Source: a virus. From it: a DNA stretch of 36,169 bases. This document shows, one piece after another, positions 10,015 through 34,430 of the stretch. The stretch is from positions 1 to 36,169 of IMG/VR virus record IMGVR_UViG_3300017917_001678; one strand, given 5' to 3'. The position numbers and the translations under genes are program-made. The notes under the pieces were generated by a model that was not told where the DNA came from, did not search any database, and worked only from the letters and a program-made list of their open reading frames with translations. The first letter of the stretch is position 1. Every line of letters starts with the position of its first letter.

Positions 10015-11114
10015 TGAAATATTTGTTATTCATTTTATTATCGATAAGTAGTTTCGCATACTCTCAAACTTCACTATGTGCTAGTTACCCAACAACATTT
10101 TGTTGTGAGTATGTTTCCAGTGTTACGATAAACGGACAAACATATGCAGGTAGTAATGGATTTACCGCGGCATCCGGAGGAAACCCCGCAGGGTATTTCA
10201 ATTATACCAATGGAACCACAGTTCCAACCATTACCGCAGGTCAAACCATTTCAATATCATATACCGCAGTTACCAATGGTAATTACATGGAATACTTCAA
10301 ATTATGGATTGACTTCAATGGTAACGGAGTTTTAACAGATGCCGGAGAATTAGTCCATAGCACCAATGTTTCTTGGTTGGGAACAAGAACAATAACCTCA
10401 ACATTCGTTGTCCCAACAACAGTTTATAATGGGCCGGTTTTTATGAGATTTATTATGCAATATTCCGGTTCTCCTGTAATATGTGGAACTTATCCCTATG
10501 GTAATACTTTTGATTTTAAGACCACAATTGCTGGTGCCCAACCAAACCCAAATTTATCTCCAACCGAAACAATAAGTGGAAATCTTTCCATACCATCAGG
10601 TTTGGTTAATCGACCAAAATTAAAATTGTTCAAAATTAATGGTACGACTACCACATTAATTGATAGTAGTGATGTTGATATAAATGGAAATTACTCATTG
10701 AAACCAAACGAATATAGCACGACTTATCGTGTGATTCCATCATTCTCAACAACATTAACCAACAACGACTTATCTTTATTATTGAGCGAAGCGAGAAATG
10801 TTAGTGTTCCTCCGGTATTAAACCCGGGATTGGTATTGAATACCGGACCGAAAATGAAAGCTGGTGACATTAACAAAAATGGAAGAGTCTATATTGACGA
10901 CGGATATCTACTAGCAAGAAGTTTAACAGGGATGAACCCACTAACTGAAGTGTTATGGTTCACATCATCAACCTATTCAACCATAACATTGAATAATTAT
11001 AATATCATAAATTCATCATCTTTTTTCGATGTTAATTTTACAACATCACCAATTGTGTTAAATTTGAGGTATATTGTATTAGGTGATGTTGACTTATCAT
11101 CTTCTTCCCAATAA
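10011..11114 (+). CDS. Exported GEVED-domain protein with dockerin-like end
   Basis: A signal peptide (MKYLLFILLSISSFAYSQ after an extra Met) is followed by a Cys-containing region and a GEVED-type domain (EYFKLWIDFNGNGVLTDAGEL near residue 92). This fold is common in surface proteins of Bacteroidota. From residue about 190 an ISGNLSIP domain and dockerin-like repeats (TLTNNDLSLLLSEARNV, then AGDINKNGRVYIDDGYLLARSL) parallel the protein at 4879. It stops at GDVDLSSSSQ, just where that paralogue continues with another cohesin-like domain and the T9SS tail. So it is either a naturally short form lacking its own T9SS signal, or a truncation. Start overlaps the previous stop (ATGATG). Confidence 0.8.
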   Translation: MMKYLLFILLSISSFAYSQTSLCASYPTTFCCEYVSSVTINGQTYAGSNGFTAASGGNPAGYFNYTNGTTVPTITAGQTISISYTAVTNGNYMEYFKLWIDFNGNGVLTDAGELVHSTNVSWLGTRTITSTFVVPTTVYNGPVFMRFIMQYSGSPVICGTYPYGNTFDFKTTIAGAQPNPNLSPTETISGNLSIPSGLVNRPKLKLFKINGTTTTLIDSSDVDINGNYSLKPNEYSTTYRVIPSFSTTLTNNDLSLLLSEARNVSVPPVLNPGLVLNTGPKMKAGDINKNGRVYIDDGYLLARSLTGMNPLTEVLWFTSSTYSTITLNNYNIINSSSFFDVNFTTSPIVLNLRYIVLGDVDLSSSSQ

Positions 11115-11153: not shown

Positions 11154-11777
11154 ATGAATTTACGTAAACTAATTAGAGAAACATTAGAAGAACAATTAAA
11201 TAGAACTTTAGTATTAACTGAAAATGTTAAAGTTTCGGACGCTCTACAATATCATATAGATAATGGTTTAACATTAACTGATAATGTTTTTAGAGTTTAC
11301 TCTGAAAGCTATTTTGATTTAGTTAATGAGGTGAGAAAATTATATACCGAAGGAAGTATAAAATTAAATGAAGAAGATACTATGATGATAGAATCCGATT
11401 TAGGTAAGAAAGTGAAAATAGGTAAGGAGTATATATACTTGGACGCACCATTTATTTATGAGGTTGAGACTGAAGAAGATATTTTATCTGAAGCCAAACA
11501 TCGTGGAAAGAATGTTAAATTAAACAAACCGTTCAGAACACCTGGTGGACCTAAAAAGTTTGCGGTTTATGTAAAATCACCGGGTGGTGGAATTAAAAAA
11601 GTCACTTTTGGTGACCCTGGATTAAGAGTTAAAAATGCCAATAAAAAAGCTGCAAAATCTTTTAGGGCTCGTCATAAATGTGACCAAAAGAAAGATAGAA
11701 CAACGGCAGGATATTGGAGTTGTTCGGTTGGTCGTTACGCTAAACAATTAGGACTATCGTCTTCAAATTCTTGGTAA
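11154..11777 (+). CDS. Putative virion-associated protein with N-terminal leader and C-terminal FRARH...WSC domain
   Basis: I chose the ATG at 11154 over a GTG three bases earlier. The N terminus, MNLRKLIRETLEEQLNRT, is a basic-amphipathic helix with a L-E-E-Q site, similar to other leader-bearing proteins here. The middle is acidic and helical. The last 90 residues have KKFAVYVKSPGG, KKVTFGDPGLRVKN, then SFRARHKCDQKKDR and YWSCSVGRY. I recognise this FRARH.C...YWSC arrangement from phage virion or head-assembly proteins of marine T4-like phages, without a firm function. Conserved Cys and His may bind metal. Late-type motif is directly upstream. Confidence 0.7.
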   Translation: MNLRKLIRETLEEQLNRTLVLTENVKVSDALQYHIDNGLTLTDNVFRVYSESYFDLVNEVRKLYTEGSIKLNEEDTMMIESDLGKKVKIGKEYIYLDAPFIYEVETEEDILSEAKHRGKNVKLNKPFRTPGGPKKFAVYVKSPGGGIKKVTFGDPGLRVKNANKKAAKSFRARHKCDQKKDRTTAGYWSCSVGRYAKQLGLSSSNSW

Positions 11778-11801: not shown

Positions 11802-12071
11802 ATGGAGTTTCCGTTTGAACAAGTTGAAATTGACAATAAAAAAATCAGGACATTTAGTCCCGATGTTGATGATTATGAATTAAAATGGCACCAAGACCTT
11901 AACGACCGAAAAGTTACAATTCTTGAAGGTGGTGGATGGCAATTTCAAATGGAAAATGAATTACCCATTAAATTGGACGATACCAAACAAATCGTTATTC
12001 CAAAACTTGCTTGGCATCGTGTATTAAAGGGGGTTAGTAATTTAGTTGTTGAGATTGAAGAATTTGATTAA
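11802..12071 (+). CDS. Small cupin-like protein, 89 aa
   Basis: I chose the ATG at 11802 (MEFPFEQVEID); a TTG at 11784 would add six residues. The sequence has the pattern of a small double-stranded beta fold: WHQDLNDRKVTILEGGGWQFQMENELPIKL, then IVIPKLAWHRVLKG and VEIEE. The IPKxxxHRVxKG motif resembles the second histidine motif of cupins, but classical first-motif metal residues are not obvious, so it may be non-catalytic. Small proteins like this occur in phage genomes, with unknown roles. Its stop interlocks with the convergent gene's stop in a shared TTAA. Confidence 0.7.
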   Translation: MEFPFEQVEIDNKKIRTFSPDVDDYELKWHQDLNDRKVTILEGGGWQFQMENELPIKLDDTKQIVIPKLAWHRVLKGVSNLVVEIEEFD

Positions 12072-13066
12072 CTTCTAATCGGCGGGGACGCATCATTTGA
12101 GTTTTCATGCGGTATGGGTGGAACAATTCTAATTCTATTAGGGATAACGACATCTTCGAGGTCAGCCTCCTCCACATAGTCCTCAATAACCCTTCCATTA
12201 ATGGTAAGTCTCATGGGTTCTTCTATCCCCGATTTTTCGTATGAGTTTCGTTGAATCCATAGTAATTGGGTATTTGCCTCATCTTCGGATAATAAGTCCC
12301 AGTTAGTTTTTTTCACATTAATGAACTCATTCTTAATGATTTCCATAATTTCATTAGGTAACCCACTTTCAATTGAGTCAATTCTGGTGTCGGACATATC
12401 CCAAAAAGATGTTTCACGATTTTCGTGAATGGAAAGGGCTTTATATGCAGCAACCTTATCACCAGTTTTTTTATTTAAACAATAAATTAAAATTCCATTT
12501 CTTGAGTATTTCAAATAATAATCAGGATTATGTTCCATAGTGGTACACCATCTTGTACTTGACCCATATTTTTTAGATGCTAAAAAAGACATAGGTTTAA
12601 TAACTAACCATTCATCATTTTCATATAATTTAATGGTTTGTCTCTCTAAATCTTTATTTAGTGATTTTAATTCGGCTAAAGATACCTCCAATTCCAACTC
12701 CTCAAAAGTTTTAAATCTGGTTAAATCATTATTAATTATTAAATTTCTTTCGTTTAATTCCTCAAATTTTCTAATCAAACGAAAATTATTATACCCAAAG
12801 TATTCGGTTAATACAAAATGAAGATTAAGTATTTCTTCATTGGATTTTGGGTTTATAAAATCTTCATCTAAATTAAATTCATGGATTAATTCTAACTTTA
12901 AACCATCAATTCTATTATAATTATTCTGTTTATTCTCTCGATAGTTTTTAATCAAATTGACTGATAATTCGGTATATTTACTTTTATTAAATAAACTATT
13001 GATAATTTCAATAGCATTAATGACTAATGATGGGTTGTTGAGTGTTAATTCGTGGATTCTTGACAT
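12068..13066 (-). CDS. Phage protein with YGSxTxWCTT motif, paralogue A (332 aa)
   Basis: An N-terminal helical region of about 140 residues leads to the conserved core: KLYENDEWLVIKP, then ASKKYGSSTRWCTT near residue 170. After that come strands (GILIYCLNKKTGDKVA) and a FWDMSDTRIDSIE segment. A paralogue at 23297-24178 shares the core and the MS+I..L...NP.L N-terminal start. The GxxTxWCT motif is widespread in uncharacterised phage proteins; its Cys and Trp could be catalytic or structural, but no activity is known to me. No membrane segment. The upstream sequence has no clear TAnnTTTG box. The end is acidic to polar with Pro. Confidence 0.75.
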   Translation of the reverse strand: MSRIHELTLNNPSLVINAIEIINSLFNKSKYTELSVNLIKNYRENKQNNYNRIDGLKLELIHEFNLDEDFINPKSNEEILNLHFVLTEYFGYNNFRLIRKFEELNERNLIINNDLTRFKTFEELELEVSLAELKSLNKDLERQTIKLYENDEWLVIKPMSFLASKKYGSSTRWCTTMEHNPDYYLKYSRNGILIYCLNKKTGDKVAAYKALSIHENRETSFWDMSDTRIDSIESGLPNEIMEIIKNEFINVKKTNWDLLSEDEANTQLLWIQRNSYEKSGIEEPMRLTINGRVIEDYVEEADLEDVVIPNRIRIVPPIPHENSNDASPPIRS

Positions 13067-13593: not shown

Positions 13594-14562
13594 ATGGAAC
13601 CAATAAACTTCCCAATAGACCGAATTAATAATTTTCTTAAAGTCCACAATTTTACGATAGAGTCTCCTTACTATGAAGAGGAAGTGATTAATTATAAAAT
13701 TAAACTTACAGGAACCCGTAGATTGATAGTTGTTGGTGATTGGCATGATGTTGTCGAATATACATTATATCTTGAGAGTGCGGGCGGAGTTAGTTCTAAA
13801 ATCCTAAGTTATGTTTTTGAGTCAATCGGAGCAAATGAAAAAACATTAACAACTACCGATACCACACTTTATCAAGTGATTTCACGAGTAAATAATAATT
13901 TATATAATCTACTAAATTATTTTAACATCGAAAATTACATTTTTTGCAATAAAGTAGTTAATAATTTAAAGAACGAAATTAATGAAAGTATTATTAACGA
14001 AGGAAGATACGACAATATCGTAAGAGAAGTAGTTAAGGATATCATGTCTGTGGTTAAATACCAAAAAGAAGGAGAATTCTCATTACCGGAGGATATTGGA
14101 GATGAAATGATGTATTCAACACCTAAACTCAATAATCCATTTACAATTGAGTTAAACTTGGAAGTTAATGAAGATGTCGATACCATTGATGTCGACGGTG
14201 AATATTATCCTGATGAAGATATCATCTCAATAACTATAATCTCCAACCCAAATCTTGACCGAGAAATTTTGGAAGAATTACATTTTGAACTTAATGAGTT
14301 AATTAGACATGAGATTGAACATATATCACAAATGGATAGGGGTGAGGAATTTCCGGAAGATGAACCGAAAAAATCTTTAGATTACTACACACAAAGGCAT
14401 GAGTTAGAGGCACAAATTGCGGGGTTTAAACGAAGAGCCCAAAAAGAAAGAAAGCCAATTGAAGATGTGATTAGGAGATGGTTTACAAAGAACTACTCAA
14501 AACATAACTTATCACCAAAAGATGTTGAGATAGTTATTAATCGAATTCTTGAATTATCTTAG
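13594..14562 (+). CDS. Putative HEIEH zinc metallopeptidase, 322 aa
   Basis: H239, E240 and H243 form a HExxH motif, followed about 30 residues later by HELEAQIAGFKRRAQKE, where E270 or E272 may be the third ligand (gluzincin-like). The N-terminal 120 residues look like a separate alpha/beta region. A site SIINE-GRYD at residues 132-139 resembles prohead-protease cleavage sites seen in other proteins of this window, so the peptidase part could be released on processing. It could be a capsid-associated or injected protease. A TATAAAAT sequence abuts the ATG, but is too close for a normal leader. Stop interlocks with the convergent gene (TTAG). Confidence 0.75.
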   Translation: MEPINFPIDRINNFLKVHNFTIESPYYEEEVINYKIKLTGTRRLIVVGDWHDVVEYTLYLESAGGVSSKILSYVFESIGANEKTLTTTDTTLYQVISRVNNNLYNLLNYFNIENYIFCNKVVNNLKNEINESIINEGRYDNIVREVVKDIMSVVKYQKEGEFSLPEDIGDEMMYSTPKLNNPFTIELNLEVNEDVDTIDVDGEYYPDEDIISITIISNPNLDREILEELHFELNELIRHEIEHISQMDRGEEFPEDEPKKSLDYYTQRHELEAQIAGFKRRAQKERKPIEDVIRRWFTKNYSKHNLSPKDVEIVINRILELS

Positions 14563-15179
14563 TAAAATTTCTTAATAATTTTTTTTATAATTTCAGTTAA
14601 AACTAACTGACCCACCAAGACAACACCCGAAGCGACCAATCTTTTGGCTACTTTCATTGATACTGTTTGGATATCTTCCCCGGAAGTCATTAAAGACTGG
14701 ATGTCCGTTACTATTGGAATCAAAAACGCATATGTTACGATATCCAAAGTTGAATTTATGGTGACTTTAGAAGATTTAATGAATTTGGTAAATGAATCCT
14801 TAAGATTTTTACCTTTTAATAGAACTTCTTTAAAAATATCCTCAAGACCCTCTTCTTTTATTTTCGATGAAATTCTTTTTAGTGTGTTTACATTGTCATA
14901 AAAATATGTGCAAGCAACCCCAACTAAAAGTAAAGCCACTTGTTCGTCCGTAATATCAAACCTACCACTTCTGATAAAATTATCTAATGGCATTACTAAA
15001 CCACCAACCGATGCACCCCAAGTTAATAACAACTTCAAATTTAATCCGTATGTTTTTCTGGCTTTATTTACAATATCACTAGTGAATGAATATAATTCTC
15101 TCATATAGTCAGTCATTTTTGACTGGTCTTGTTCCTGTAAGATAACTCTCAATTGAGATTCGTTAATTAAAAATTCCAT
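14559..15179 (-). CDS. Multi-helix membrane protein with leader-like N terminus
   Basis: The start MEFLINESQLRVILQEQDQS carries the L-Q-E-Q motif seen at the leader end of other putative virion proteins. After it come about four hydrophobic segments (LLLTWGASVGGLVMPL, ALLLVGVACTYFY, IVTYAFLIPIV and VASGVVLVGQLVL), separated by charged helices. If packaged and processed, it might act as a membrane protein ejected with the DNA. Otherwise it is simply an inner-membrane protein. The ATG is almost adjacent to the palindromic TATTTATAAATA at 15181-15192, which also faces the gene at 15212. Confidence 0.65.
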   Translation of the reverse strand: MEFLINESQLRVILQEQDQSKMTDYMRELYSFTSDIVNKARKTYGLNLKLLLTWGASVGGLVMPLDNFIRSGRFDITDEQVALLLVGVACTYFYDNVNTLKRISSKIKEEGLEDIFKEVLLKGKNLKDSFTKFIKSSKVTINSTLDIVTYAFLIPIVTDIQSLMTSGEDIQTVSMKVAKRLVASGVVLVGQLVLTEIIKKIIKKFY

Positions 15180-23296: not shown

Positions 23297-24178
23297 TTAT
23301 CTTGTTCTTCTTAAATCTGGATAATCTGGATATTCATAATAATTTCCATTATCGTAATAAGTTCTATAGTTATTGGAGTCAATCGTTGCCGGGTCAATTC
23401 CCATAATATATTGATTCATTAGTTGTGAGATAGTATCTCGAGATATATAACTTTTATAACCGGATTCGGGTTTATTTATTTCTGAATGAATTTTTTTATA
23501 CTCATCTAATTCCATAATAGTTTCATCTTTTTTAATTTCAGAAATAATTATGTTAATAATATCAGTAGATATTGGAAGAGTTAAAGGGCTAACTTCTTTA
23601 TCGTTAGATAACCAACCTTGAATTCTACTTGAGTTACCTTTTTTAATTGAGACTGCGTATTTGTCATTATTGATTCTATCGATAATGTAAATTAATTTAT
23701 ATTCATCAATATAAGTAAGCCAGTGAGTTTCTTGAGTTGTGCACCACTTAGTATTTGAACCATACATTTTGGAAGCTTCATAACTTAATGGAATAACAAC
23801 ACAATATTCATCATTATCAAGTAATTTTATGACTTGTTTTTCAAGTTCTTTTTGTTTTAAGATTTCTTCGGCGTCATTAACAGAATCAAGCATTTCATCC
23901 CAACTTTTATATTGAGAAATGTCATTTTTCTTAACTCTATTCGCATTACAATGTTTGTCGAACTCATTCAGTAATTCAACTTTGTCTGGTCCTAAAATTT
24001 CCGTAATAAGATATAATCCAATATCATCACCCTCATTATAGTCGTATTCACCCTTCAATCTGTTAATTAAGAAGTGAAGATACTTATTTGTATTTGAAGG
24101 GTCAATCTTCGCCAACAAATCAATAATACTAACATTAAGATTAGGATGTTGTTCCTTTAATTTATCTATTTTAGACAT
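23297..24178 (-). CDS. Phage protein with YGSxTxWCTT motif, paralogue B (293 aa)
   Basis: The N-terminal 115 residues are helical. The core LLDNDEYCVVIPLSYEASK and MYGSNTKWCTTQETHW (about residues 145-160) matches the protein at 12068-13066. Strands follow (YKLIYIIDRINNDKYAVSIKKG) and a SRIQGWLSND segment. The C terminus is Tyr-rich (NNYRTYYDNGNYYEYPDYPDL). The WCT family is common in phages, with no known activity. Two copies in one genome suggest diversified roles or distinct targets. Confidence 0.75.
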   Translation of the reverse strand: MSKIDKLKEQHPNLNVSIIDLLAKIDPSNTNKYLHFLINRLKGEYDYNEGDDIGLYLITEILGPDKVELLNEFDKHCNANRVKKNDISQYKSWDEMLDSVNDAEEILKQKELEKQVIKLLDNDEYCVVIPLSYEASKMYGSNTKWCTTQETHWLTYIDEYKLIYIIDRINNDKYAVSIKKGNSSRIQGWLSNDKEVSPLTLPISTDIINIIISEIKKDETIMELDEYKKIHSEINKPESGYKSYISRDTISQLMNQYIMGIDPATIDSNNYRTYYDNGNYYEYPDYPDLRRTR

Positions 24179-24783: not shown

Positions 24784-25433
24784 TATCCTACAATCCCCTT
24801 TAACTCGTCCGTATGGTGGTCAAATAACATATCTGACGCAACCTCACGACCATCCATAATCCTTATAATATCATCCATGTCATATACTCCAAACGTTGGG
24901 TGTCCATCCACGCCAACATCCATTTTCTTACCTTTACCGAATCTTAAATTTGTCGGTAAATGACAGTGCCCATGGAGTTGGATATGACCTTTATTTAACC
25001 CATCCCAACTTTGTATTGGATAATGTGATAATACAAATGTCTTATATTTGTATGTTAATTTGTTGTAGTGAGAAACACTTGCAAATAATCCTTGACAACC
25101 TTCTTTATTGTTTTCTATGTGGTGGTCATGATTCCCAAGAATCAAATGAATTTCTTTACATTTAATTTGGTCTCTAAACATTTGAATGTTTTCGAAACCA
25201 CCAAAAGACCAGTCTCCCAAGTGAATTAATACATCATCTTCACCAACAACCATATTGATGTTGTTAACAATTGAAGTGTTCATTTCCTCAATGGTCTCAA
25301 AATCTCTTGTCTTGTCTTTAGGAACACTTCCATCCGGAAGTCTCCAATCAGTAGTCCCCCTACAAATGTTTTTGTGTCCGTAGTGAGTATCTGAAGTAAT
25401 AAAAACTTTTCTATTTTTCTCTATCTTAATCAT
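24783..25433 (-). CDS. Calcineurin-like metallophosphoesterase, second
   Basis: The ATG at 25433 (MIKIEKNRKVFITSD) was chosen because a TAnnTTTG box ends 4 nt before it. Metal-binding motifs appear in order: SDTHYGHKN, HLGDWSFGG, LGNHDHH, SHYP and GHCH, followed by DVGVDGHP. This arrangement matches single-domain phage and bacterial phosphoesterases. The substrate is unknown. It is not similar enough to the protein at 1317-2015 to be a recent duplicate (no GSPWQP segment). First gene of an operon running to 23096. Confidence 0.9.
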   Translation of the reverse strand: MIKIEKNRKVFITSDTHYGHKNICRGTTDWRLPDGSVPKDKTRDFETIEEMNTSIVNNINMVVGEDDVLIHLGDWSFGGFENIQMFRDQIKCKEIHLILGNHDHHIENNKEGCQGLFASVSHYNKLTYKYKTFVLSHYPIQSWDGLNKGHIQLHGHCHLPTNLRFGKGKKMDVGVDGHPTFGVYDMDDIIRIMDGREVASDMLFDHHTDELKGIVG

Positions 25434-25944
25434 ACTGCAAATGTAATACTTTTTTTTCAAACCAGTCAGGTTTTTTTCTATTTTTCCAAACCGCTAAATC
25501 AGATTTCTCTCCAATATAGTAATTTCTATAGGATTCAACAACACATTCTACCTTATATTCGTCAGGCATTGCTTTCGCTGGTGTGGTAAACCCAATATCC
25601 GGAATATTTGGTAGGTTGGTAACACACCATTCAATCACATCTTGAGATTTATGTCTTTTCCCGTATCGATAAGTGTATTCTTTAGATAATTCCAAACCTA
25701 ATTCACACAAATACAAATAATTTGTTAAACTTTCACGAGCCCAAATAGAACACGGGTGATTTTTGTGGGATAATTTATAAGGGACTTCCAAAGTCGATGT
25801 TGGTAATTTATATGGTTGTAATAAAGACATATGATGAACACCACATAAAAGTTGGGCCGTTTCTAATATCATTTTTACAACATGTTTGTCCACATGATAT
25901 TGAGCACATTTTTCAACATCGTAATCTAAAAAGAAAATATTCAT
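25426..25944 (-). CDS. Conserved phage protein with QYHxDKHVVKM motif
   Basis: The N terminus MNIFFLDYDVEKCAQYHVDKHVVKMILE is typical of a conserved group of phage proteins. Some are annotated as pyrimidine-dimer DNA glycosylases (Pyr_excise type) on weak similarity. Later segments KLSHKNHPCSIWAR, ELSKEYTYRYGKRHK, PAKAMPDEYKVECVVESYRNYY are also familiar. The conserved His, Lys, and Asp could be functional, but the glycosylase assignment is not established here. Its 3' end overlaps the promoter of the downstream phosphoesterase. Own promoter at 25961-25968. Confidence 0.8.
   Translation of the reverse strand: MNIFFLDYDVEKCAQYHVDKHVVKMILETAQLLCGVHHMSLLQPYKLPTSTLEVPYKLSHKNHPCSIWARESLTNYLYLCELGLELSKEYTYRYGKRHKSQDVIEWCVTNLPNIPDIGFTTPAKAMPDEYKVECVVESYRNYYIGEKSDLAVWKNRKKPDWFEKKVLHLQYD
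25437..25445 (-). promoter_or_regulatory. Bacteroidota-type promoter element, 4 nt from ATG
   Basis: The minus strand reads TACATTTG-CAGT-ATG, with the same 4-nt gap as at 20377. It lies inside the end of the upstream gene and predicts a leaderless phosphoesterase transcript. Confidence 0.7.
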
Positions 25945-26413: not shown

Positions 26414-27775
26414 ATGAGAGGTTATTTTGGATTAGGTCAATTGTCTGCATCAGAAAAGTCAGATATTTTGAATCAACATAAAAGTTTATATAACGGATAC
26501 CAAACGATGCAACCGCAAGTATCAAACACTCAACCATTGCATGTTTATGATTTTGCTGGTGACAAAGATGGTATGGTTGTTAATAATAAGGGTGAGGTTA
26601 AGAAATACACAAACATGGGAATCAACGAACAAGCTGAAAAAAATGAAGTTTGTGATGAATGTGGTGCAATGATTATGGATGGTATGTGTAATGAATGTGG
26701 TTATGGTCACATGGAAGAATCAGAACTTGAAGAAGGTAATATGTGTGAACAATGTGGTGGTACCATGAAAGAAGATGTTTGTGAACAATGTGGTTCAGGA
26801 AAAATGGAAGAAGGGACAGGACATTTGGATGACATTTATAATGTGCATGATTTGAACTTAACAAAAGGTGATTTTGATTATGTTGAAGGTGGTGGAAACG
26901 ACTACGGGACATTTGAAAAGGCTCATCACATGAAAAAAATGAAAAACGAACAAGTTGAAGATGATGATGACTATTTGGATTATGAATCATCATATACTGA
27001 AGATGGTATGGATGACCCGGATAATGAAGATGACGGATTTGAAGATATGAATCTTGATGAAATCGAAGTTGATAAATTAAGTAAAGGTGGAAAATACAAA
27101 TATCATCCAAAATATAAACCGGAGGCTGAGGATGAGGTTGAATTTATGGATAGAATTGACTATGAAGACAATTCAAAACCTCATTACCAATTCTCAGGTA
27201 AAAAATCAAATTATTTGTTCCCTGATAGAGAAATTGAAGATTTTATCTCTAGTTTGGACGAACAGGGTGGAAATGTTGACGATATGGATGTTGACGATGT
27301 GGAGGACGCATATGACTTTGTTTCTAATGGTCCGGGAGGTGTATATCCGGTAAATGAAGATGACATGTATGGATATGAACCGGAGATGACATATGAAACA
27401 ATGGAATCGGCATGGGCGGACGAAGAAATAGACGAACAAGATGTATCAGGTTCTCAAGGAATATATGGTGATATGAAAAGGGCATATGATTTCGATAGTG
27501 GAGGGCCAGGTAAAGGTGGGCCTTACCAAGAATTTTCATATGAAAGTGAATTAGATGAAGAAGACGAATTTGGATTTGCAACACATAGTGGAGATTTTGA
27601 AGGAGACGACTCTGAAGAAGAAGATTTCGGATTTGCAACACATAGTGGAGATTTTGAAGGAGACGACTCTGAAGATGATGAGTGGGAAGAAATTGATGTC
27701 GATATGAAAGAATCATTTATCACTCAAAAGAATAAAATTACTGAAATGTTCAATAGAATTGGTAAATTTAATTAA
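26414..27775 (+). CDS. Large acidic protein with twin zinc-ribbon-like motifs and leader; putative virion protein
   Basis: The N terminus ASEKSDILNQHKSL resembles leaders of the proteins at 31786 and 32328. A site GINE-Q follows at residues 69-73. Two C-x2-C-x8-C-x2-C motifs (C80, C83, C92, C95 and C111, C114, C123, C126) likely bind two zinc ions. The rest is extremely acidic, with further L-D-E-Q and I-D-E-Q sites, and a near-identical 19-residue repeat (GFATHSGDFEGDDSEEED) near the end, then a basic helix. Such acidity with protease-like sites is reminiscent of capsid scaffold or core proteins, but sequence identity with a known scaffold is not seen. Late-type promoter and terminator bracket it as a single unit. 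Confidence 0.7.
   Translation: MRGYFGLGQLSASEKSDILNQHKSLYNGYQTMQPQVSNTQPLHVYDFAGDKDGMVVNNKGEVKKYTNMGINEQAEKNEVCDECGAMIMDGMCNECGYGHMEESELEEGNMCEQCGGTMKEDVCEQCGSGKMEEGTGHLDDIYNVHDLNLTKGDFDYVEGGGNDYGTFEKAHHMKKMKNEQVEDDDDYLDYESSYTEDGMDDPDNEDDGFEDMNLDEIEVDKLSKGGKYKYHPKYKPEAEDEVEFMDRIDYEDNSKPHYQFSGKKSNYLFPDREIEDFISSLDEQGGNVDDMDVDDVEDAYDFVSNGPGGVYPVNEDDMYGYEPEMTYETMESAWADEEIDEQDVSGSQGIYGDMKRAYDFDSGGPGKGGPYQEFSYESELDEEDEFGFATHSGDFEGDDSEEEDFGFATHSGDFEGDDSEDDEWEEIDVDMKESFITQKNKITEMFNRIGKFN
27572..27685 (+). repeat. Two-copy 57-bp coding repeat
   Basis: Copies begin at 27572 and 27629 and share 47 identical bases (GGATTTGCAACACATAGTGG onward). They encode G-F-A-T-H-S-G-D-F-E-G-D-D-S-E, about 19 residues per unit. 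The near-perfect DNA identity indicates recent duplication. Confidence 0.9.
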
Positions 27776-27776
27776 G

Positions 27777-27805
27777 AAAAAACCCTCATTATTGGGGGTT
27801 TTTTT
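27777..27805 (+). terminator. Rho-independent terminator after the acidic protein gene
   Basis: AACCCTC (27781-27787) pairs with GGGGGTT (27794-27800) around the loop ATTATT (7 pairs including one G-U) and is followed by TTTTT. It lies 4 nt after the stop at 27773-27775 and ends the transcript from 26392-26406. Confidence 0.9.
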
Positions 27806-27861
27806 ATGCCAAATTGGATTTTGATAAATTCGCACATATTTTATAGTAAAAACATTTAACC

Positions 27862-28161
27862 ATGGAAATTAAAGAAATTGTATCATACTTTTTAAACCCA
27901 AACTCAAACATCTTAGAAGTTACATTTAGAACTATTGATGATGGAGATGATTCCATTAGGACTGATAATATCGATTACTCAATAGTTAAAGAATATGGGT
28001 TTTCAGTTGAAGTAGAGTATGACATTACTGAAGAGATGGACGAAGATGAACTTTGGGAAAAAAATTACATCGTTGAATTAGATGAAGATGAACTTACTTC
28101 ATTTTTGAATGAGTATTATGAGGTTAATCCAACATCATTACCAAAATCTGAATTATATTAA
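27862..28161 (+). CDS. Conserved acidic small phage protein, 99 aa
   Basis: MEIKEIVSYFLNPNSNILEV and TFRTIDDGDDSIRTDNIDYS start a beta-rich domain; the second half is strongly acidic (EEMDEDELWEKN, ELDEDELTSFLNEYYEVNP). I recall closely similar small proteins in Bacteroidota phages with no known function. Its stop interlocks with the convergent lipoprotein gene (TTAA). Confidence 0.7.
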   Translation: MEIKEIVSYFLNPNSNILEVTFRTIDDGDDSIRTDNIDYSIVKEYGFSVEVEYDITEEMDEDELWEKNYIVELDEDELTSFLNEYYEVNPTSLPKSELY

Positions 28162-28691
28162 GGACCGACTCTTGTAAGATACAAAGTCATCACTTGTTTT
28201 TCCCCCATTTTACCTTTAAACCACGCTCCAGCACTTTTTAACTGAAGAGATTCAAATCCGTCATCCTCAATTAAAAAAGTTAAAGTTCTTACGGACTTAT
28301 CGGATGCAACATAATCAAATTGAACGAATCCGCTATTATATGAATTGTTCCCCAAAATTCGATAGAATATTTCATTTGGGGAAACACCATATTCCCAAAT
28401 ATCTCTTCCCGTGGGACTAACTCCCAACTGATTCATCCTTATTGTTGAATAATCAAAATGAAGATAAAATCTATTAATGACGATAGAGTCAAACGGGTCG
28501 GCCATTGATTTGTTAACATAAGTTGAACCAACAAGATATAAAGAATCCCTTGATTGGTTTTGGTCAACACTGGTAATGTCAAGTTTTGAAACAACATATT
28601 TACCGCTTAAGGTAACATCACTAGTCTCAAGGACAAATTTTTCACAAGAAGTGAACAAAAATAAGATTAATAATAGATATAAATTTCTCAT
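28158..28691 (-). CDS. Exported lipoprotein, 177 aa
   Basis: The N terminus MRNLYLLLILFLFTSC has a lipobox (F-T-S-C), so the mature lipoprotein starts CEKFVLET. The remaining residues form strands (GKYVVSKLDI, FYLHFDYSTIRMNQL, FVQFDYVAS, RTLTFLIEDDGF, QVMTLYLTRVG), consistent with a lipocalin-like or beta-sandwich fold. No enzyme motif is seen. It may be surface-exposed and block superinfection, but that is inference. Own promoter with the 4-nt gap. Stop shares TTAA with the convergent gene. Confidence 0.7.
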   Translation of the reverse strand: MRNLYLLLILFLFTSCEKFVLETSDVTLSGKYVVSKLDITSVDQNQSRDSLYLVGSTYVNKSMADPFDSIVINRFYLHFDYSTIRMNQLGVSPTGRDIWEYGVSPNEIFYRILGNNSYNSGFVQFDYVASDKSVRTLTFLIEDDGFESLQLKSAGAWFKGKMGEKQVMTLYLTRVGP

Positions 28692-28694
28692 GGT

Positions 28695-28703
28695 GCAAAT
28701 ATA
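28695..28703 (-). promoter_or_regulatory. Bacteroidota-type promoter element, 4 nt from ATG
   Basis: The minus strand reads TATATTTG-CACC-ATG, the same geometry as at 20377 and 25437, predicting a leaderless lipoprotein transcript. Confidence 0.75.
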
Positions 28704-28727
28704 ATAAAACTTTTTTAATTCCTAAAA

Positions 28728-28735
28728 TATTTATT
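28728..28735 (+). promoter_or_regulatory. Late-type motif TATTTATT
   Basis: TATTTATT ends 3 nt before the ATG at 28739. It fits the class seen before other putative virion genes, although very close to the start. Confidence 0.3.
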
Positions 28736-28738
28736 ACT

Positions 28739-28993
28739 ATGAATTTAGATGTAGATTTTTTAATAGATTTTTTTAATAAACATTCCGGTAGTGAATTTAA
28801 AGATGAGATTGATGAACAAGATGCCGGGGCTACAACAACCGCACCTTCGGGAGGAGGTGGAGGCGGAGGAGGAAGTGTTCCAAAATGGGCAGATTCTTAT
28901 CCCTTAAAACGTGGTAAATCAAATCCATTAATGAAATCAGGAGAGAAATGGAATACGGGGTTAACTCGAGGTTCCGCAAATCAAATTTGGTAA
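28739..28993 (+). CDS. Small putative virion protein with IDE-Q site, 84 aa
   Basis: The N terminus (MNLDVDFLIDFFNKHSGS) is an amphipathic helix. A site EIDE-QDAG follows near residue 25, matching the hydrophobic-x-E-Q pattern. Then come a Thr/Ala stretch, a run of eight Gly, and a conserved-looking end (YPLKRGKSN, GEKWNTGLTRGSANQIW). The Gly linker separates leader and body. The G-x-x-R-G-x-A-N-x-I end is reminiscent of small phage structural proteins, but I cannot name a family. Confidence 0.6.
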   Translation: MNLDVDFLIDFFNKHSGSEFKDEIDEQDAGATTTAPSGGGGGGGGSVPKWADSYPLKRGKSNPLMKSGEKWNTGLTRGSANQIW

Positions 28994-29001
28994 TAACGAT
29001 A

Positions 29002-29009
29002 TATTTATA
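29002..29009 (+). promoter_or_regulatory. Late-type motif TATTTATA
   Basis: TATTTATA ends 6 nt before the ATG at 29016, first gene of a six-gene run to 33599. Confidence 0.35.
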
Positions 29010-29015
29010 GACTAG

Positions 29016-30080
29016 ATGAAGCAAAACTATACCTTAATTGAAGGAAATGACGCATTAAATAAGACTCTTCTTATGATGAGATATGATGTGTCAAAAACTT
29101 TAAATGAAAATTTAGTTAATGAACAAACTCAAAATAATAAAAATTCATTTTTTTTACAAAACCAACCAACAAATAAAAAACCTTCAAATAAAAAAGGTAT
29201 AATACCCGGAGCCGAACCACTACCATATACAAAGCTTGGGGATTATGTGTCTATACAATCTTCTACAATTTCGGATGGACTGCTAAAGGCTAGAGAATAT
29301 TTGTTCACCACTCAAGGTATGACTGTACAAATTGTGTTATCTATTTTGGGTGCGGAAATAGGAGCACCAATCGCATTTGCGATTTTAGATATTGCAATAA
29401 TAATTAATGATTTCTCAATTATGGTGAAAAATTGGAAGGATACTGAATACACACCATGGACATGGGAATGGTTTACATTTCATTGGGAGAATAACAAAGG
29501 ATTTCAAATGGTTATTGAAGATTTAGGATTATTGTTAGGTATGGGACTAACAAGGCTTGTTGGTAAAGGTTCAAAATATGCTTGGAAACATTTAAAGTCA
29601 ATGTCTAAAAATACTGAAAAATTAGTTTTATTAGCCGAAAAGGAGATAATAAAAAAAGAACCTTTTATTAAAAAATTACCTAAAAAACTTGCAAATTTTT
29701 CAGAAAGAAAATTAGGAGAATTAAAACAAGGTCTTGAATTATTGAAGTCTCCAAAACAAGCAACAAAAAGTGTTGTTAGAAATGTTCCAAAGGCAATTAC
29801 AATGGGAGCTTTAAATGTTGGATTTTTAACATTTTTTGATAAATATATTTTACCGAAATTAAGCGGAAAAGACAATGAAATTACTGAATTAAAGAAAAAT
29901 ATTAATGATGATGGGTTAATTGATGAAATCATATATCAAAATCCAAAATTATTTCCAAACGGGATTAAAAATTTTCAAATTGTAACTAATAAACAGAAAA
30001 AATTTGTCAAATTTATAATTGACGGACAAAATTACGGTATCAAACAAAAAGATACTTATACATTAACAAAACTATCATAA
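29016..30080 (+). CDS. Putative capsid-internal protein with membrane-active segments
   Basis: The leader has ENLVNE-QTQN at residues 31-39, fitting the hydrophobic-x-E-Q site. A Lys/Asn/Pro-rich linker follows, then hydrophobic stretches (VQIVLSILGAEIGAPIAFAILDIAIII near 104-130, LLLGMGLTRL). A long Lys-rich middle (KKEPFIKKLPKKL, SERKLGELKQGLELLKSPKQ) and a hydrophobic strand (MGALNVGFLTFF) come next, then a charged end. The combination of basic, DNA-friendly and membrane-active regions with a late-type promoter fits a protein packaged in the head and ejected with DNA. No known family. Confidence 0.65.
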   Translation: MKQNYTLIEGNDALNKTLLMMRYDVSKTLNENLVNEQTQNNKNSFFLQNQPTNKKPSNKKGIIPGAEPLPYTKLGDYVSIQSSTISDGLLKAREYLFTTQGMTVQIVLSILGAEIGAPIAFAILDIAIIINDFSIMVKNWKDTEYTPWTWEWFTFHWENNKGFQMVIEDLGLLLGMGLTRLVGKGSKYAWKHLKSMSKNTEKLVLLAEKEIIKKEPFIKKLPKKLANFSERKLGELKQGLELLKSPKQATKSVVRNVPKAITMGALNVGFLTFFDKYILPKLSGKDNEITELKKNINDDGLIDEIIYQNPKLFPNGIKNFQIVTNKQKKFVKFIIDGQNYGIKQKDTYTLTKLS

Positions 30081-30081
30081 T

Positions 30082-30933
30082 ATGAAAAAAGAATTATTAA
30101 ATGAAATTAACAACATAAGAATTAAAATGGGGTTGAGGGTAGTAAATGAAGGTTCGATATTAATTACAGAATCAGGTGTTATATCGTCATTTATTAGTAA
30201 GGTTTTACCAAAATCACTAATAACTAATACCGAAAAAAAGTTGATTACAAAATTCCTTAAAGGGGGGTTGAACGAACTTGAACAAGAGTCTTTATCTAAA
30301 TTCTTTAAAAGTGTTGAAGGTAAATCATTTGTGACTGAGTTGAGGAAACAAATTGCAAAGGAAGAAGATGAAGCAGTAAAAATGAGATTAGATGCGTGGT
30401 TAACACAAACTGAGAGAAAATTTAATAAAATAGAGAAAGGAAAAGGGTTTAAAGGCCTTATGCCAGACCCAAACCCGCTTCATATTCCAAACCCTACTGA
30501 AATAACTCGTTCGAGTATTGATGATATAATTAATACGAACATGAAAAATCCAAGATTCAAAGAATATATGGTTATGTTAGATAATTTAAATCTTGAAGAC
30601 GAAGTTAAAAATTTAACTATTCTTGCATATTCTAAAGTTGGTAATGACCCTGTTGCCGCAATTAAATATGCTGCCGAGTTATCCAAGCAATTAAATGAAA
30701 AAAAATATGGTTGGATAAAAAGAGCGGTTTATGGGGCAATGAAAAACCCGTCTAAAACAATTTCAATTGGTGGAAAAACAATTGCTGCTGGTACTTTTTG
30801 GTATGTAGTAGTAGTTGCAGTATTAACATTAGGTGCAGCAGCACTTAGTTGGATTAATTACGCAAAATCCGTATTACCAAAAGCACCTGAAAATAAATCA
30901 TTGGAAGATGAAGTGGAAGATTTTAAAATATAA
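30082..30933 (+). CDS. Putative capsid-internal protein with C-terminal membrane helix
   Basis: The leader MKKELLNEINNIRIKMGLRV has VVNE-G and LITE-S sites at residues 20-31, similar to the neighbouring leaders. The middle is basic and helical (KLITKFLKGGLNELEQ). Near the end is a hydrophobic helix (YVVVVAVLTLGAAALSWINY) followed by an acidic tail (SLEDEVEDFKI). It starts 1 nt after the previous stop. The layout resembles the preceding gene; possibly a membrane-inserting ejection protein. No known family. Confidence 0.65.
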   Translation: MKKELLNEINNIRIKMGLRVVNEGSILITESGVISSFISKVLPKSLITNTEKKLITKFLKGGLNELEQESLSKFFKSVEGKSFVTELRKQIAKEEDEAVKMRLDAWLTQTERKFNKIEKGKGFKGLMPDPNPLHIPNPTEITRSSIDDIINTNMKNPRFKEYMVMLDNLNLEDEVKNLTILAYSKVGNDPVAAIKYAAELSKQLNEKKYGWIKRAVYGAMKNPSKTISIGGKTIAAGTFWYVVVVAVLTLGAAALSWINYAKSVLPKAPENKSLEDEVEDFKI

Positions 30934-30939
30934 TGATAT

Positions 30940-31767
30940 ATGTTAGAAAACAGAGAAAAACTATTTGAAACATTAAAAAAACAAAAACTATCAGCATCAG
31001 TTGATTCAAACGCATTTATTAATAGATTCTTTAATAATGAAAAAAATGTGTTGGGTTTGTATACTGCATTAAAGGGTAAAAAATATACTCAAGGTAAATA
31101 TAAAGGACAACCTTTAATTGATTATAATGAAAATGAATTTTTTAAAAAATATGCTTGTGATTTGGCGTGGGCAAAAACTACTAACTATTGTTCATCCCAA
31201 CAAACACCTAAACAAACAACGGCGGATTGGTCATCATATCCTTGTGTTGTGAGTTTAGCAAATTCGAAAGGTGTTAAAATTGATATAAATGGAGCTTACT
31301 TAATTGGTAACTTTAGATATTTTGCAAATGGAAGAAAAGGAGATTTAACAACAGGAAAAGTATTAAATTATACTTGTAATGACCCCGAGTTTAAAACACA
31401 ACAAACTCCTGATAAAACACAAAAATTAAATACCCAATTAAAATATAGTGGATGTCCTGAGGTTCACCCGGTGAAATATGGATGTAAAAATAATTTAGTT
31501 AAAACTTTTCAGAGATGTTTAGGTGTTAAAGATGATGGTAAGTTTGGACCAATAACCCGCCAAAAAATGAAGGACTTAGGATTAGGGGGTGATGTAATCA
31601 CCGCAAAAGAAAGAATTGCGGTTTGTTCTCGATTAGACCCAGTTACTCCTGAAACTCAAAATTTAGGTTATGAAGATTATACAAATGACGAATATGAAGA
31701 TTCAAGTGAAAAACCTGAACAAGAGTTTTCAACAGGTTATGAAGATTATACATTAGAAGAAAATTAA
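30940..31767 (+). CDS. Cysteine-rich putative virion protein with PG-binding-like domain
   Basis: The start is an amphipathic helix (ENREKLFETLKKQKL). The body has Cys pairs (CDLAWAKTTNYCS, YPCVVSL, NYTCND, GCPEVH, YGCKN, QRCLGV, AVCSRL), suggesting disulphide-stabilised or metal-bound domains. Around residues 187-215, LVKTFQRCLGVKDDGKFGP and ITRQKMKDLG match the peptidoglycan-binding type 1 pattern. The end has two GYEDYT repeats. It might help the tail or ejected proteins pass the cell wall. It lacks a clear hydrophobic-x-E-Q site. Confidence 0.65.
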   Translation: MLENREKLFETLKKQKLSASVDSNAFINRFFNNEKNVLGLYTALKGKKYTQGKYKGQPLIDYNENEFFKKYACDLAWAKTTNYCSSQQTPKQTTADWSSYPCVVSLANSKGVKIDINGAYLIGNFRYFANGRKGDLTTGKVLNYTCNDPEFKTQQTPDKTQKLNTQLKYSGCPEVHPVKYGCKNNLVKTFQRCLGVKDDGKFGPITRQKMKDLGLGGDVITAKERIAVCSRLDPVTPETQNLGYEDYTNDEYEDSSEKPEQEFSTGYEDYTLEEN

Positions 31768-31770
31768 ACA

Positions 31771-31778
31771 TATAAATA
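31771..31778 (+). promoter_or_regulatory. Late-type motif TATAAATA
   Basis: TATAAATA exactly matches the T4 late core and ends 7 nt before the ATG at 31786, inside the run of virion-like genes. Confidence 0.45.
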
Positions 31779-31785
31779 ATATAAA

Positions 31786-32319
31786 ATGAAATCAGCATTG
31801 AAAATTAGTGGTGAAGAGAAAAAACAAATTCTTGAGCAACACGATTCATTTAAGAGTAAAATACAATCAAAAGTTAAAAGACTTATGATTAATGAACAAA
31901 CTCAAACCGATAATACAAAAGTAAGAGATTTCTTAGAGAAAGCCAGACAATATTGTAAAATTGCAAAAAACGGAAAATTTATGAGTGCTCCTGGCAAACC
32001 AAGTGTTCTATTTAAAATTGCAGATTATAATTCAGAGGCAGGACATTTCAAAGAAGGTGATAAATTATATATTAAATCGGATTTTACATTTGATGTTATT
32101 AGTAAAGATGAAAAGGGTAAAGAATTCAAATCGGCGTCTAATAAAATGTGGAAATGTGACCAATTAACTAATATGTTAAATAAAGATTCTCAAAATTCTT
32201 CAAAAGAAACTCCTAAACCAATGGGGACACCGGCACAAACTCAAAATACGGGAACACCAGCACAAACTCAACTTCAAAGAGCCGATGCTGAAGAATCAAC
32301 AGAATTACTTAATCAATAA
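31786..32319 (+). CDS. Putative capsid-internal protein with leader and MINE-Q site
   Basis: The leader ISGEEKKQILEQHDSFKS is closely similar to that of the protein at 26414. The likely processing site MINE-QTQTD is at residues 34-42; the following QTQ recurs in the protein at 29016. The body (about residues 45-130) is a mixed alpha/beta domain with two Cys (YCKIAKN, WKCDQLT) and ends in a Pro/Thr/Gln-rich tail with a twice-repeated GTPAQTQ. It resembles the next gene's body and they may be paralogues. Confidence 0.65.
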   Translation: MKSALKISGEEKKQILEQHDSFKSKIQSKVKRLMINEQTQTDNTKVRDFLEKARQYCKIAKNGKFMSAPGKPSVLFKIADYNSEAGHFKEGDKLYIKSDFTFDVISKDEKGKEFKSASNKMWKCDQLTNMLNKDSQNSSKETPKPMGTPAQTQNTGTPAQTQLQRADAEESTELLNQ

Positions 32320-32327
32320 AATATAAT

Positions 32328-32930
32328 ATGATGAAATCTATAATTGACGAAAATGAGGTAAAACGAATTCTTATGATGCACAAAGCATTAAAAGAACAAG
32401 AAACACCAACATCAACGGAGCCAAGCCCTGAGGATGATTATAAAAAATTAAAAGCCGCGGAAAGTGTTAAATGTTTGTTCAATGGTGCGATATATAAAAA
32501 CCACCCAAAGAAAAAGACATATTTTTATAGAGGTGTCAGTCAAAAATCAAAAAAAGAAATAGATTTTTTTGGTGACATGACATATGAATTTGTAGATGGT
32601 AGTAAAAGTGGGACATGGACATGTAGTAGATTTAAGGACTCAAGTTATTCAGATGATTTCCAATCATCAGTATCACTTCAAACTCCTGAAAAAAATAAAT
32701 GTAGAGATAAAATTAATCGATTTTATGATAGTTGGGAAAATAAAGTTGATATTGATGATAATACATTTAACCGTATGAAACAAGAAGTTCAGACTTGTGT
32801 TAATCATTATAGAAAAGATTGGGGTGGGTTATTAAACTTAGGCCCTTTGAAAAAGAAAGTTGACTTATTAAGAGGAGGAATTGGAGGAACATCAAGTTAT
32901 GGTGATGATTCTAAATGGAGAATAAATTAA
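32328..32930 (+). CDS. Putative capsid-internal protein with LKE-Q site
   Basis: The leader IDENEVKRILMMHKALKEQE ends with L-K-E-Q and resembles those of the proteins at 26414 and 31786 (E-[KV]-x2-I-L-x2-H). The body has a Cys/Trp domain (VKCLFNGAIYK, GTWTCSRF) that parallels the previous gene's (YCKIAKNGKF, MWKCDQL). It continues into a second Cys part (KNKCRDKINRF, VQTCVNHY) and a basic Gly-rich end. A second ATG is 3 nt downstream. Confidence 0.65.
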   Translation: MMKSIIDENEVKRILMMHKALKEQETPTSTEPSPEDDYKKLKAAESVKCLFNGAIYKNHPKKKTYFYRGVSQKSKKEIDFFGDMTYEFVDGSKSGTWTCSRFKDSSYSDDFQSSVSLQTPEKNKCRDKINRFYDSWENKVDIDDNTFNRMKQEVQTCVNHYRKDWGGLLNLGPLKKKVDLLRGGIGGTSSYGDDSKWRIN

Positions 32931-32936
32931 GATATT

Positions 32937-33599
32937 ATGTTAGAGAAAAAAATTAAAAAAACTTTAATTGAATCTAAAGAGAAGAAAGAAAAACTTTTGA
33001 TTGAAGAAAAGATTGTTAAGGACAGGTTATTGTTTTTATTCGAAGGTATTAATTCTGAAAAAGAATTTAAAAAATTACCTAAAAATAAACAACTTAAAAT
33101 GAGTCTCAAGTTTCTTCAAGAAATGTCTTATCTACAAAAAACTGGGTTAATTAAAGAAGACCTTGATTGGGGAGGATTTCTAAAGAAAATTTTTGGTCAG
33201 ACTTTTGGGTCGGTTGCTCAAACAATGGTTGAACCATATATTGATAGTGTTCTTTCTGCGTTAGGTATAAGCGGATTTATTAAAAATTTTGTTGTTTCTT
33301 ATTTAACCTCAAGACCAAGTGAAGTTATCGAATCTTTCTCGGATTGTAAAATAATGACTAAATTAGTTTCTAGAAGTATTGTGGAAGGTATGGTCAAATC
33401 ATTACAAGAAAAAACAGGAACTGGAGGATTTGCGTATAATTTAATTAGAAATCAATTAGGTAATATGATAGAATCAACTGAATTTGTATCTTCAATTGAG
33501 TCGGGATTACAAACTACGATTTGTTCTATTTCGAATAAATTAGGAAGTAACACTAAAAATGTATTAGGAAAATTACAAGGTGGTTTAAGTAGTATTTAA
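32937..33599 (+). CDS. Putative capsid-internal amphipathic protein
   Basis: The first 50 residues are a Lys/Glu coiled-coil-like helix (KKIKKTLIESKEKKEKLLIEEK) with FLFE-G at about 34-37 as a possible cleavage site. Further on are basic helices and long amphipathic or weakly hydrophobic segments (FGQTFGSVAQTMVEPYIDSVLSALGIS, IKNFVVSYLTS) and a Gly/Ser-rich end. No enzyme motif. Last gene of the run that begins at 29016; followed by a structured intergenic region and terminator. Confidence 0.6.
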   Translation: MLEKKIKKTLIESKEKKEKLLIEEKIVKDRLLFLFEGINSEKEFKKLPKNKQLKMSLKFLQEMSYLQKTGLIKEDLDWGGFLKKIFGQTFGSVAQTMVEPYIDSVLSALGISGFIKNFVVSYLTSRPSEVIESFSDCKIMTKLVSRSIVEGMVKSLQEKTGTGGFAYNLIRNQLGNMIESTEFVSSIESGLQTTICSISNKLGSNTKNVLGKLQGGLSSI

Positions 33600-33740: not shown

Positions 33741-34430
33741 TTACAACTTATCTATTTTTTTAGATTTTGGTTTAACGATTTCATCGATAATACCATATTC
33801 TAATGCTTCTTGGGCATCCAACCACAAATCTCGAGTTGCGTCATTCATGACTTGTTCTGCTGACTTACCACAATAAGAACCTAATAATTCAAAAAGAATG
33901 TTATTGGTTTTTTCCCACTCAATCATATTGATACGAGCGTCTTGGATATTTCCACCGGCACCTCCCGATGATTGATGTAACATTGTTTTGGAAAATCTCA
34001 ATGATGAACGTTTTCCTTTGGTTCCTGCCCCTAACAATACTGAACCCATCGATGCCGCCATTCCGGTATTCACGGTTCTAATATCACAAGAGATGTATTC
34101 CATCACATCTACCATAGATAAACCAGATTTTACACTTCCTCCCGGACTATCAATGTGCATTGTAATGTCCGATTTATCCGAAGAATCCAAGAACATTAAT
34201 TGAGCTTGAACTATAGTTGACATTCTGTCATCAACAGGCCCTGCAACCCATAATACTCGGTCTCTCATTAATCTTGAGAAGATATCCATTTGAGTTGCTC
34301 TCATCTCTCTTTCTTCCAAGATATATGGTGTCATTGAGGATTCGATTTGTTTGGTAAAGTAATCCAAATGGGATGATGGTTTACCTAAATGTTTCGTGTA
34401 ATACGATTGAAATTCTTGTCCGTAATTCAT
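33741..34430 (-). CDS. clpP: ClpP-like serine protease
   Basis: Catalytic residues are all present: Ser127 in GMAASMGS, His152 in MLHQ, and Asp201 in TRDLWL, with the HIDSPGGSV oxyanion-binding segment near 92-100 and EALEYGIIDEI near the end. The N-terminal 50 residues are longer than in E. coli ClpP, which has a 14-residue propeptide; the extension may be phage-specific. Host-type ClpP needs a ClpX/A partner, none of which is in this window. It could replace or modify host ClpP in degrading host proteins; ClpP-like proteins also serve as head-maturation proteases in some phages. Own promoter upstream. Confidence 0.93.
   Translation of the reverse strand: MNYGQEFQSYYTKHLGKPSSHLDYFTKQIESSMTPYILEEREMRATQMDIFSRLMRDRVLWVAGPVDDRMSTIVQAQLMFLDSSDKSDITMHIDSPGGSVKSGLSMVDVMEYISCDIRTVNTGMAASMGSVLLGAGTKGKRSSLRFSKTMLHQSSGGAGGNIQDARINMIEWEKTNNILFELLGSYCGKSAEQVMNDATRDLWLDAQEALEYGIIDEIVKPKSKKIDKL

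Follow-up and report, generated by a model that had tools for sequence, protein, structure and literature searches.

Putative cleavable capsid-loading tags shared by unrelated proteins of a large phage, probably of Bacteroidetes hosts, and its relatives

In phage T4, the internal proteins IPI, IPII and IPIII and the protein Alt carry a short N-terminal capsid-targeting sequence (CTS) that ends in hydrophobic-x-Glu and is used on different proteins. The first ten residues of IPIII suffice for packaging, and the prohead protease gp21 (Pfam PF03420, S77) cuts after L/I-x-E (PMC9026906). T4 has four such cargo proteins (PMC7411985), and it has been suggested that the targeting sequence may be a general device by which T4-like phages take on new head proteins (PMC9026906). 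In the giant phages phiKZ, 201phi2-1 and SPN3US, many head proteins, several of them ejected, lose N-terminal propeptides cut after x-x-Glu by the prohead protease gp175 or gp245, and some propeptides contain several sites (PMC9026906, PMC5694885). Here we analyzed a 36,169-nt viral sequence (IMG/VR record IMGVR_UViG_3300017917_001678, positions 1 to 36,169; hereafter the window) together with its relatives. The original prediction, made from the sequence alone, was that at least eight otherwise different proteins share N-terminal leaders ending in [ILV]-x-E, usually followed by Gln, and that these proteins are packaged in the head and ejected.

Every motif of the original prediction is present in the window. 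To test whether this exceeds chance, we compared the motif counts with those in within-protein shuffles, which keep composition. [ILV]xEQ in residues 6-48 occurs in 9 of 58 window genes, compared to 1.1±1.0 after shuffling, and in 39 of 388 and 25 of 380 genes of two relatives of ~320 kb, compared to 10.6±3.4 and 9.1±3.0, respectively. The rate in residues 6-32 is 10.8 times the interior rate in the window and 6.7, 4.9, 4.2 and 3.8 times in four relatives, with a sharp peak at residues 10-20, whereas T4, P-SSM4, crAss001 and RM378 show no significant Q enrichment. Notably, [ILV]xE without Gln is not informative, as 54% of proteins without a leader have one in residues 10-48. Three window hits of the plain motif scan (709, 16403 and 23297) look like chance, and some other members of the scanned list (an SNF2 helicase, a dUTPase) entered by the plain motif and are probably not tagged. 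The helix E-[KV]-x2-I-L-x2-H, which the original prediction noted in three proteins, is found in 26414, 31786 and 32328; over all loci it occurs 89 times in the N-terminal 48 residues and once elsewhere, although many of the copies are orthologues.

Most of the leader-bearing genes lie on the plus strand between positions 26414 and 33599; the slash in the motifs below marks the expected cut. The gene at 26414..27775 encodes a very acidic protein of 453 aa with a Cys-rich (zinc-ribbon-like) part, a leader with the helix EKSDILNQH, the site INE/Q at residue 72 (26621-26632) and further xEQ sites at 112, 124, 283 and 341. INE is kept in 90% and Q in 86% of 41 orthologues. There are 2.43 [ILVM]xEQ per protein compared to 0.33 after shuffling, and the protein is probably a prohead core component cut at several places rather than cargo. 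The 84-aa protein encoded at 28739..28993 has the site IDE/Q at residue 26 (28808-28819), with E26 conserved in 43/43 orthologues and Q27 in 95% within a variable linker.

The next three genes lie in an exchangeable slot. The 354-aa protein (29016..30080) has the leader ...LLMMRYDVSKTLNEN-LVNE/Q with the site at residue 36 (29115-29126); its leader type is shared with 26 slot genes, with a median identity of 71% in the leader and 8% in the body. The 283-aa protein (30082..30933) has the leader MKKELLNEINNIRIKMGLRVVNE/G with the site at residue 23 (30142-30153) and a second site, ITE/S, at residue 30; these two motifs alone say little because they lack Gln, but the same leader type is found on other bodies at the same place in relatives. 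The 275-aa protein (30940..31767) has a weak PG-binding match and no convincing site in this copy, although homologues of its C-terminal part carry leaders.

Downstream of these genes, the 177-aa protein (31786..32319) has a leader with the helix EKKQILEQH and the sites ILE/Q at residue 17 and INE/Q at residue 37 (31888-31899), and the 200-aa protein (32328..32930) has a leader with the helix EVKRILMMH and the site LKE/Q at residue 23 (32388-32399); for both, homologues in relatives keep the helix and an xEQ-type site. The 220-aa helical protein encoded at 32937..33599 was missed by the original prediction. It has the site IKE/D at residue 74 (33150-33161), where [ILV]xE is present in 38/38 orthologues and followed by Gln in 23/38, and an earlier LIE site lies at residue 23 in relatives. 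In the AlphaFold model of this protein (pLDDT 75.8), which has no fold match in the PDB, the site at residue 74 lies in the coil between helices 49-68 and 78-86.

Two of the remaining cases are less convincing. The 206-aa protein encoded on the minus strand at 14559..15179 has the leader MEFLINESQLRVILQE/Q with the site at residue 16 (15129-15140), but the site is only partly conserved, with [ILVM]xE in 7/12 and Q in 4/12 orthologues. The structural model of this protein is poor (pLDDT 57). Its leader type (class B, MKYIITESQL...) occurs on unrelated proteins of relatives, and 18 of 26 class B leaders have a later [ILV]xE site. The 207-aa protein encoded on the plus strand at 11154..11777, which matches phrog_7595 of unknown function, has LEE/Q at residue 13 (11184-11195), but the site is not conserved in its 5 orthologues (LETQ, LEEQ, LEEH, LNAE and LEKL). 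Thus, two of the eight proteins of the original prediction are weak examples. Finally, the 322-aa protein encoded on the plus strand at 13594..14562 has INE/G at residue 136 (13993-14004), at the border where relatives start the C-terminal part as a separate protein; orthologues in the genomes designated G002 and L083 start near this point, but this is a single observation.

We then asked how the leaders are distributed in the two ~320-kb relatives. In those two genomes, 54 proteins carry five recurrent leader types on 45 unrelated bodies, gathered in one region per genome (P 2e-10 and 9e-9). A leader profile finds 30 proteins with E down to 6e-21, compared to a best interior match of E 0.02. 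The bodies include PG-binding, C39, M23-lysozyme and L,D-transpeptidase domains, and some domains begin right after the site, with PG-binding starting at residue 20 or 21 and C39 at residue 29. In contrast, Pfam and PHROG scans of the window cargo gave no confident function.

The predicted protease exists in the phage group (E 1e-22 to 1e-25). Seven of eight IMG/VR relatives tested encode a T4 gp21-type (S77) prohead protease (E 1e-22 to 4e-24 or better), whereas the eighth is a 72-kb fragment; the window itself has no S77 gene, as may be expected of a fragment. The protease matches the solved structure of T4 gp21 (5JBL, E 3.7e-13, residues 53-196), with the Ser of GISSRG aligned with the Ser of GVASRG and ELNHP aligned with ELNAP of the crystal chain. 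The gene lies in a T4-type head module next to gp23-, gp20- and TerL-like genes, and the gp23-like capsid protein (PF07068, E 4e-71) reads HLINE/ASS or FLINE/ASS near residue 60, the expected place, in 4/4 genomes. A gp22-like acidic protein beside the capsid gene holds a segment similar to the leaders, KEEINQLVKESLSEQ, but the profile match is only E 0.02-0.03.

Taken together, these data support the interpretation that the leaders are capsid-targeting propeptides of the T4 kind, to which we assign a probability of roughly 0.77. In this model, inferred from the protease gene and the sites in the absence of any virion proteomics or N-terminal data that we could find for this group, a short amphipathic N-terminal segment would bind the prohead core, such that the protein is enclosed as the head forms. 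The S77 protease would then cut after [ILV]-x-E, here usually before Gln, and free the mature protein inside the head in the same step that trims the capsid protein at LINE/A. By analogy with T4 and the giant phages, the freed proteins would leave with the DNA into the host. The phage group uses several leader types and moves them between unrelated bodies, and the cargo probably includes cell-wall-active domains and many proteins of unknown function.

Other explanations appear less likely. The leaders could be real shared tags that address something other than the head, e.g. the host membrane, a replication compartment, or a chaperone or ClpP partner, with the E-Q being part of a binding face that is not cut. 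The lack of cleavage data, the position of the block next to a ClpP gene (33741-34430) and the absence of a later site in some class B leaders leave room for this view, which we nevertheless consider unlikely: the conserved core is exactly the gp21 rule, is shared with the capsid protein and is kept in variable linkers and in a coil between helices, as a cut site would be, and the ClpP is an ordinary PF00574 ClpP that does not explain a Glu-specific site. Alternatively, the leaders could be conserved mainly as DNA, as anchors for recombination that swap gene bodies, with no role for the peptide. This would fit a slot with constant leaders and changing bodies, and identical codons at identical residues are somewhat above the codon-usage expectation (0.57 against 0.46 and 0.55 against 0.44). 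However, leader copies within one genome share only 50-59% of residues and most synonymous sites are near expectation, indicating that selection acts mainly on the protein, which makes this explanation very unlikely, although recombination at leaders may still be how bodies are exchanged. Chance motifs in Glu- and Gln-rich phage proteins are excluded for the set as a whole by the shuffles, the lack of significant Q enrichment in the four other phages and the conservation between orthologues, but may account for single proteins such as 11154.

If the main interpretation is correct, dozens of hypothetical proteins per genome would become predicted virion cargo delivered at the start of infection, readable from the first 20-40 residues. 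This would give a simple sequence rule for finding early-acting proteins (possibly anti-defence or cell-wall-acting) in uncultured jumbo phages, and candidate tags for loading proteins into phage heads in Bacteroidetes. A broader hypothesis, which we consider about as likely as not, is that jumbo and mega-phages use an open-ended head-loading code, in which several interchangeable, lineage-specific address peptides, with a lineage-specific residue after the cut (Gln in this Bacteroidetes group, Ser in a 634-kb uncultured phage, Ala in T4 internal proteins), load some 25-50 different proteins per virion, such that much of the unannotated small-gene content of these phages is cargo. Our literature search, limited to open-access papers, returned no report of such leaders in this phage group.

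Compared to T4, the phage group has about 25-30 leader proteins per 320-kb genome and several unrelated leader types; some propeptides are longer (36-74 residues), and the cut would be followed by Gln, which is not known from T4, where the listed internal proteins have Ala. By eye, the leaders do not resemble the T4 leader beyond the final motif. In phiKZ, 201phi2-1 and SPN3US the motif is S/A-x-E or A-x-E and the propeptides often exceed 100 residues, whereas the conserved sites here have I, L, V or M three residues before the cut, the leaders are short and reusable, and the protease is S77 by Pfam score, not the phiKZ family S80. The bS21-encoding Bacteroidetes jumbo phages (PMC9723584) have the same gene order, with S21 on the opposite strand among terminase, portal, prohead protease and capsid genes, a genome size of about 320 kb and low GC, but leaders or cargo are not described in the passages of that work we consulted. 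The 634-kb uncultured phage LR745206.1 has its own leader family, MKYLKxFNE/S, in 52 proteins compared to 2.7±1.7 after shuffling and on 49 unrelated bodies, likewise with hydrophobic-x-Glu before a fixed residue, but with a different leader sequence, Ser instead of Gln after the cut and only a weak S77 match (E 1e-4).

The window contains no S77 gene of its own. The ClpP gene of the window is 65% identical to one in a 634-kb uncultured phage (LR745206.1) and 80–98% identical to genes in 80 IMG/VR contigs. Two relatives of ~320 kb, here G002 and G003, were read whole, together with two of 182 and 166 kb. The head module, annotated in G002, holds a gp23-like capsid protein (PF07068, E 4e-71), a gp20 portal (E 3.5e-76), an S77 prohead protease (E 1e-21), a T4-type terminase and, on the opposite strand, a ribosomal protein S21. 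A Bacteroidetes host is supported by a protein of 634 aa (4879-6783, + strand) that ends in a T9SS type A sorting domain (TIGR04183, E 2.4e-10; PF18962, E 1.7e-9), a bacterial secretion signal of Bacteroidetes that is unexpected on a phage contig. Next to it, a protein at 10011-11114 (+) carries a GEVED domain (PF20009, E 1.1e-11), and both look like host-type surface proteins. The protein at 8416-10014 (+) contains a long run of NTTQ(S/T)(G/Q)GN-type tandem repeats.

The original prediction held that otherwise different proteins share N-terminal leaders ending in [ILV]xE, usually followed by Gln, and the motifs it listed are all present. To test whether they exceed chance, we compared the occurrence of [ILV]xEQ in residues 6-48, using mechanical gene calls, with that in within-protein shuffles. 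The motif was found in 9/58 window genes (expected 1.1±1.0), in 39/388 genes of G002 (10.6±3.4) and in 25/380 genes of G003 (9.1±3.0), with the rate peaking at residues 10-20. By contrast, a bare [ILV]xE is uninformative. Among the residues following [ILVF]xE, Gln is the one strongly enriched near N termini in this group (78 hits, 4.0-fold, P 5e-19), followed by Ala (2.0-fold, P 8e-5), whereas in the 634-kb phage the enriched residue is Ser (89 hits, 2.4-fold, P 3e-10). The Bacteroides phage crAss001, which has no S77 match, shows nothing at P below 0.1.

An iterated profile built from 11 seeds recovered 30 proteins with the leader MKKIIRLTESDLTRLVKRVIKEQ and its variants, with E values down to 6e-21, while the best interior match in the same genomes has E 0.02. 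A segment of the gp22-like protein resembles the leader, but at E 0.02-0.03 this similarity is suggestive only. Five leader types together, of which those other than the profile-based one were defined by eye after looking at the data, cover 54 proteins in G002 and G003 with 45 unrelated bodies, gathered in one region of each genome (25 of 29 and 20 of 25; P 2e-10 and 9e-9). The bodies include PG-binding domains starting at residue 20 or 21, a C39 peptidase starting at residue 29, an M23 plus lysozyme protein and an L,D-transpeptidase. Some leader-bearing bodies, at L102:7757-8368 (-; L102 is one of the loci compared) and G003:233904-234581, hold hydrophobic Gly/Pro-rich stretches (VLIPVIGPFISSMVGL) that could be membrane-active. 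A YGSxT[KR]WC[TV]T motif is shared by two untagged window proteins (12068-13066 and 23297-24178, both - strand) and by a leader-bearing protein of G003 (235352-235834), so that the same domain, for which there was no Pfam match, seems to occur with and without the tag. Leader residues are shared at the protein level, with codons only slightly more alike than codon usage predicts.

In the window, the genes from 26414 to 33599 form a block ending at ClpP that is kept in order in relatives. Between the orthologues of the genes starting at 28739 and 32937, 40 distinct loci carry one to five genes whose leaders belong to a few types while the bodies differ. For 26 genes with the first leader type, the median identity is 71% for the leader and 8% for the body, although the leader value is biased upward because these genes were picked by their leader. 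The sites are conserved between orthologues, which do not, however, represent independent samples: in the 28739 family E26 is present in 43/43 and Q27 in 95%, in the 26414 family INE is present in 90% and Q in 86%, and in the 32937 family [ILV]xE occurs at residue 74 in 38/38, with Q in 23/38, in a coil between two helices of the AlphaFold model. The 26414 family has 2.43 xEQ sites per protein against 0.33 after shuffling and is very acidic, like a prohead core protein cut into pieces, the last step being inferred from T4 gp22. Outside the block, at 13594-14562 (+), N- and C-terminal parts are fused, whereas in G002 and the locus L083 the C-terminal part starts a separate protein; INE↓G (the arrow marks the putative cut) lies at the join, and the C-terminal part has a RHEIEH zincin-like motif.

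These features can be compared with those of T4, where the first ten residues of IPIII suffice for packaging and gp21 cuts after L/I-x-E (PMC9026906). In the relatives of the window the same protease family is present and matches solved T4 gp21 (5JBL, E 3.7e-13), and the capsid protein reads LINE↓A in 4/4 genomes. The same scan run on T4 lists what appear to be known gp21 substrates with this anatomy, such as the internal proteins with FIAE↓A and gp22. Given the motif enrichment, modular reuse and orthologue conservation, we therefore take the leaders as capsid-targeting propeptides, with core binding, cleavage, packaging, ejection and any function in the host being inferred. LR745206.1 carries another leader, MKYLKxFNE↓S, on 52 proteins (2.7±1.7 after shuffling) with 49 unrelated bodies. 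The cultured Flavobacterium phage immuto has S77 (E 7e-36), a capsid site IVSE↓A and two proteins, at 25061-25456 and 111675-112139, that share the leader MKKQILSEQF[KR]RMQ[FK]LAGIITES.
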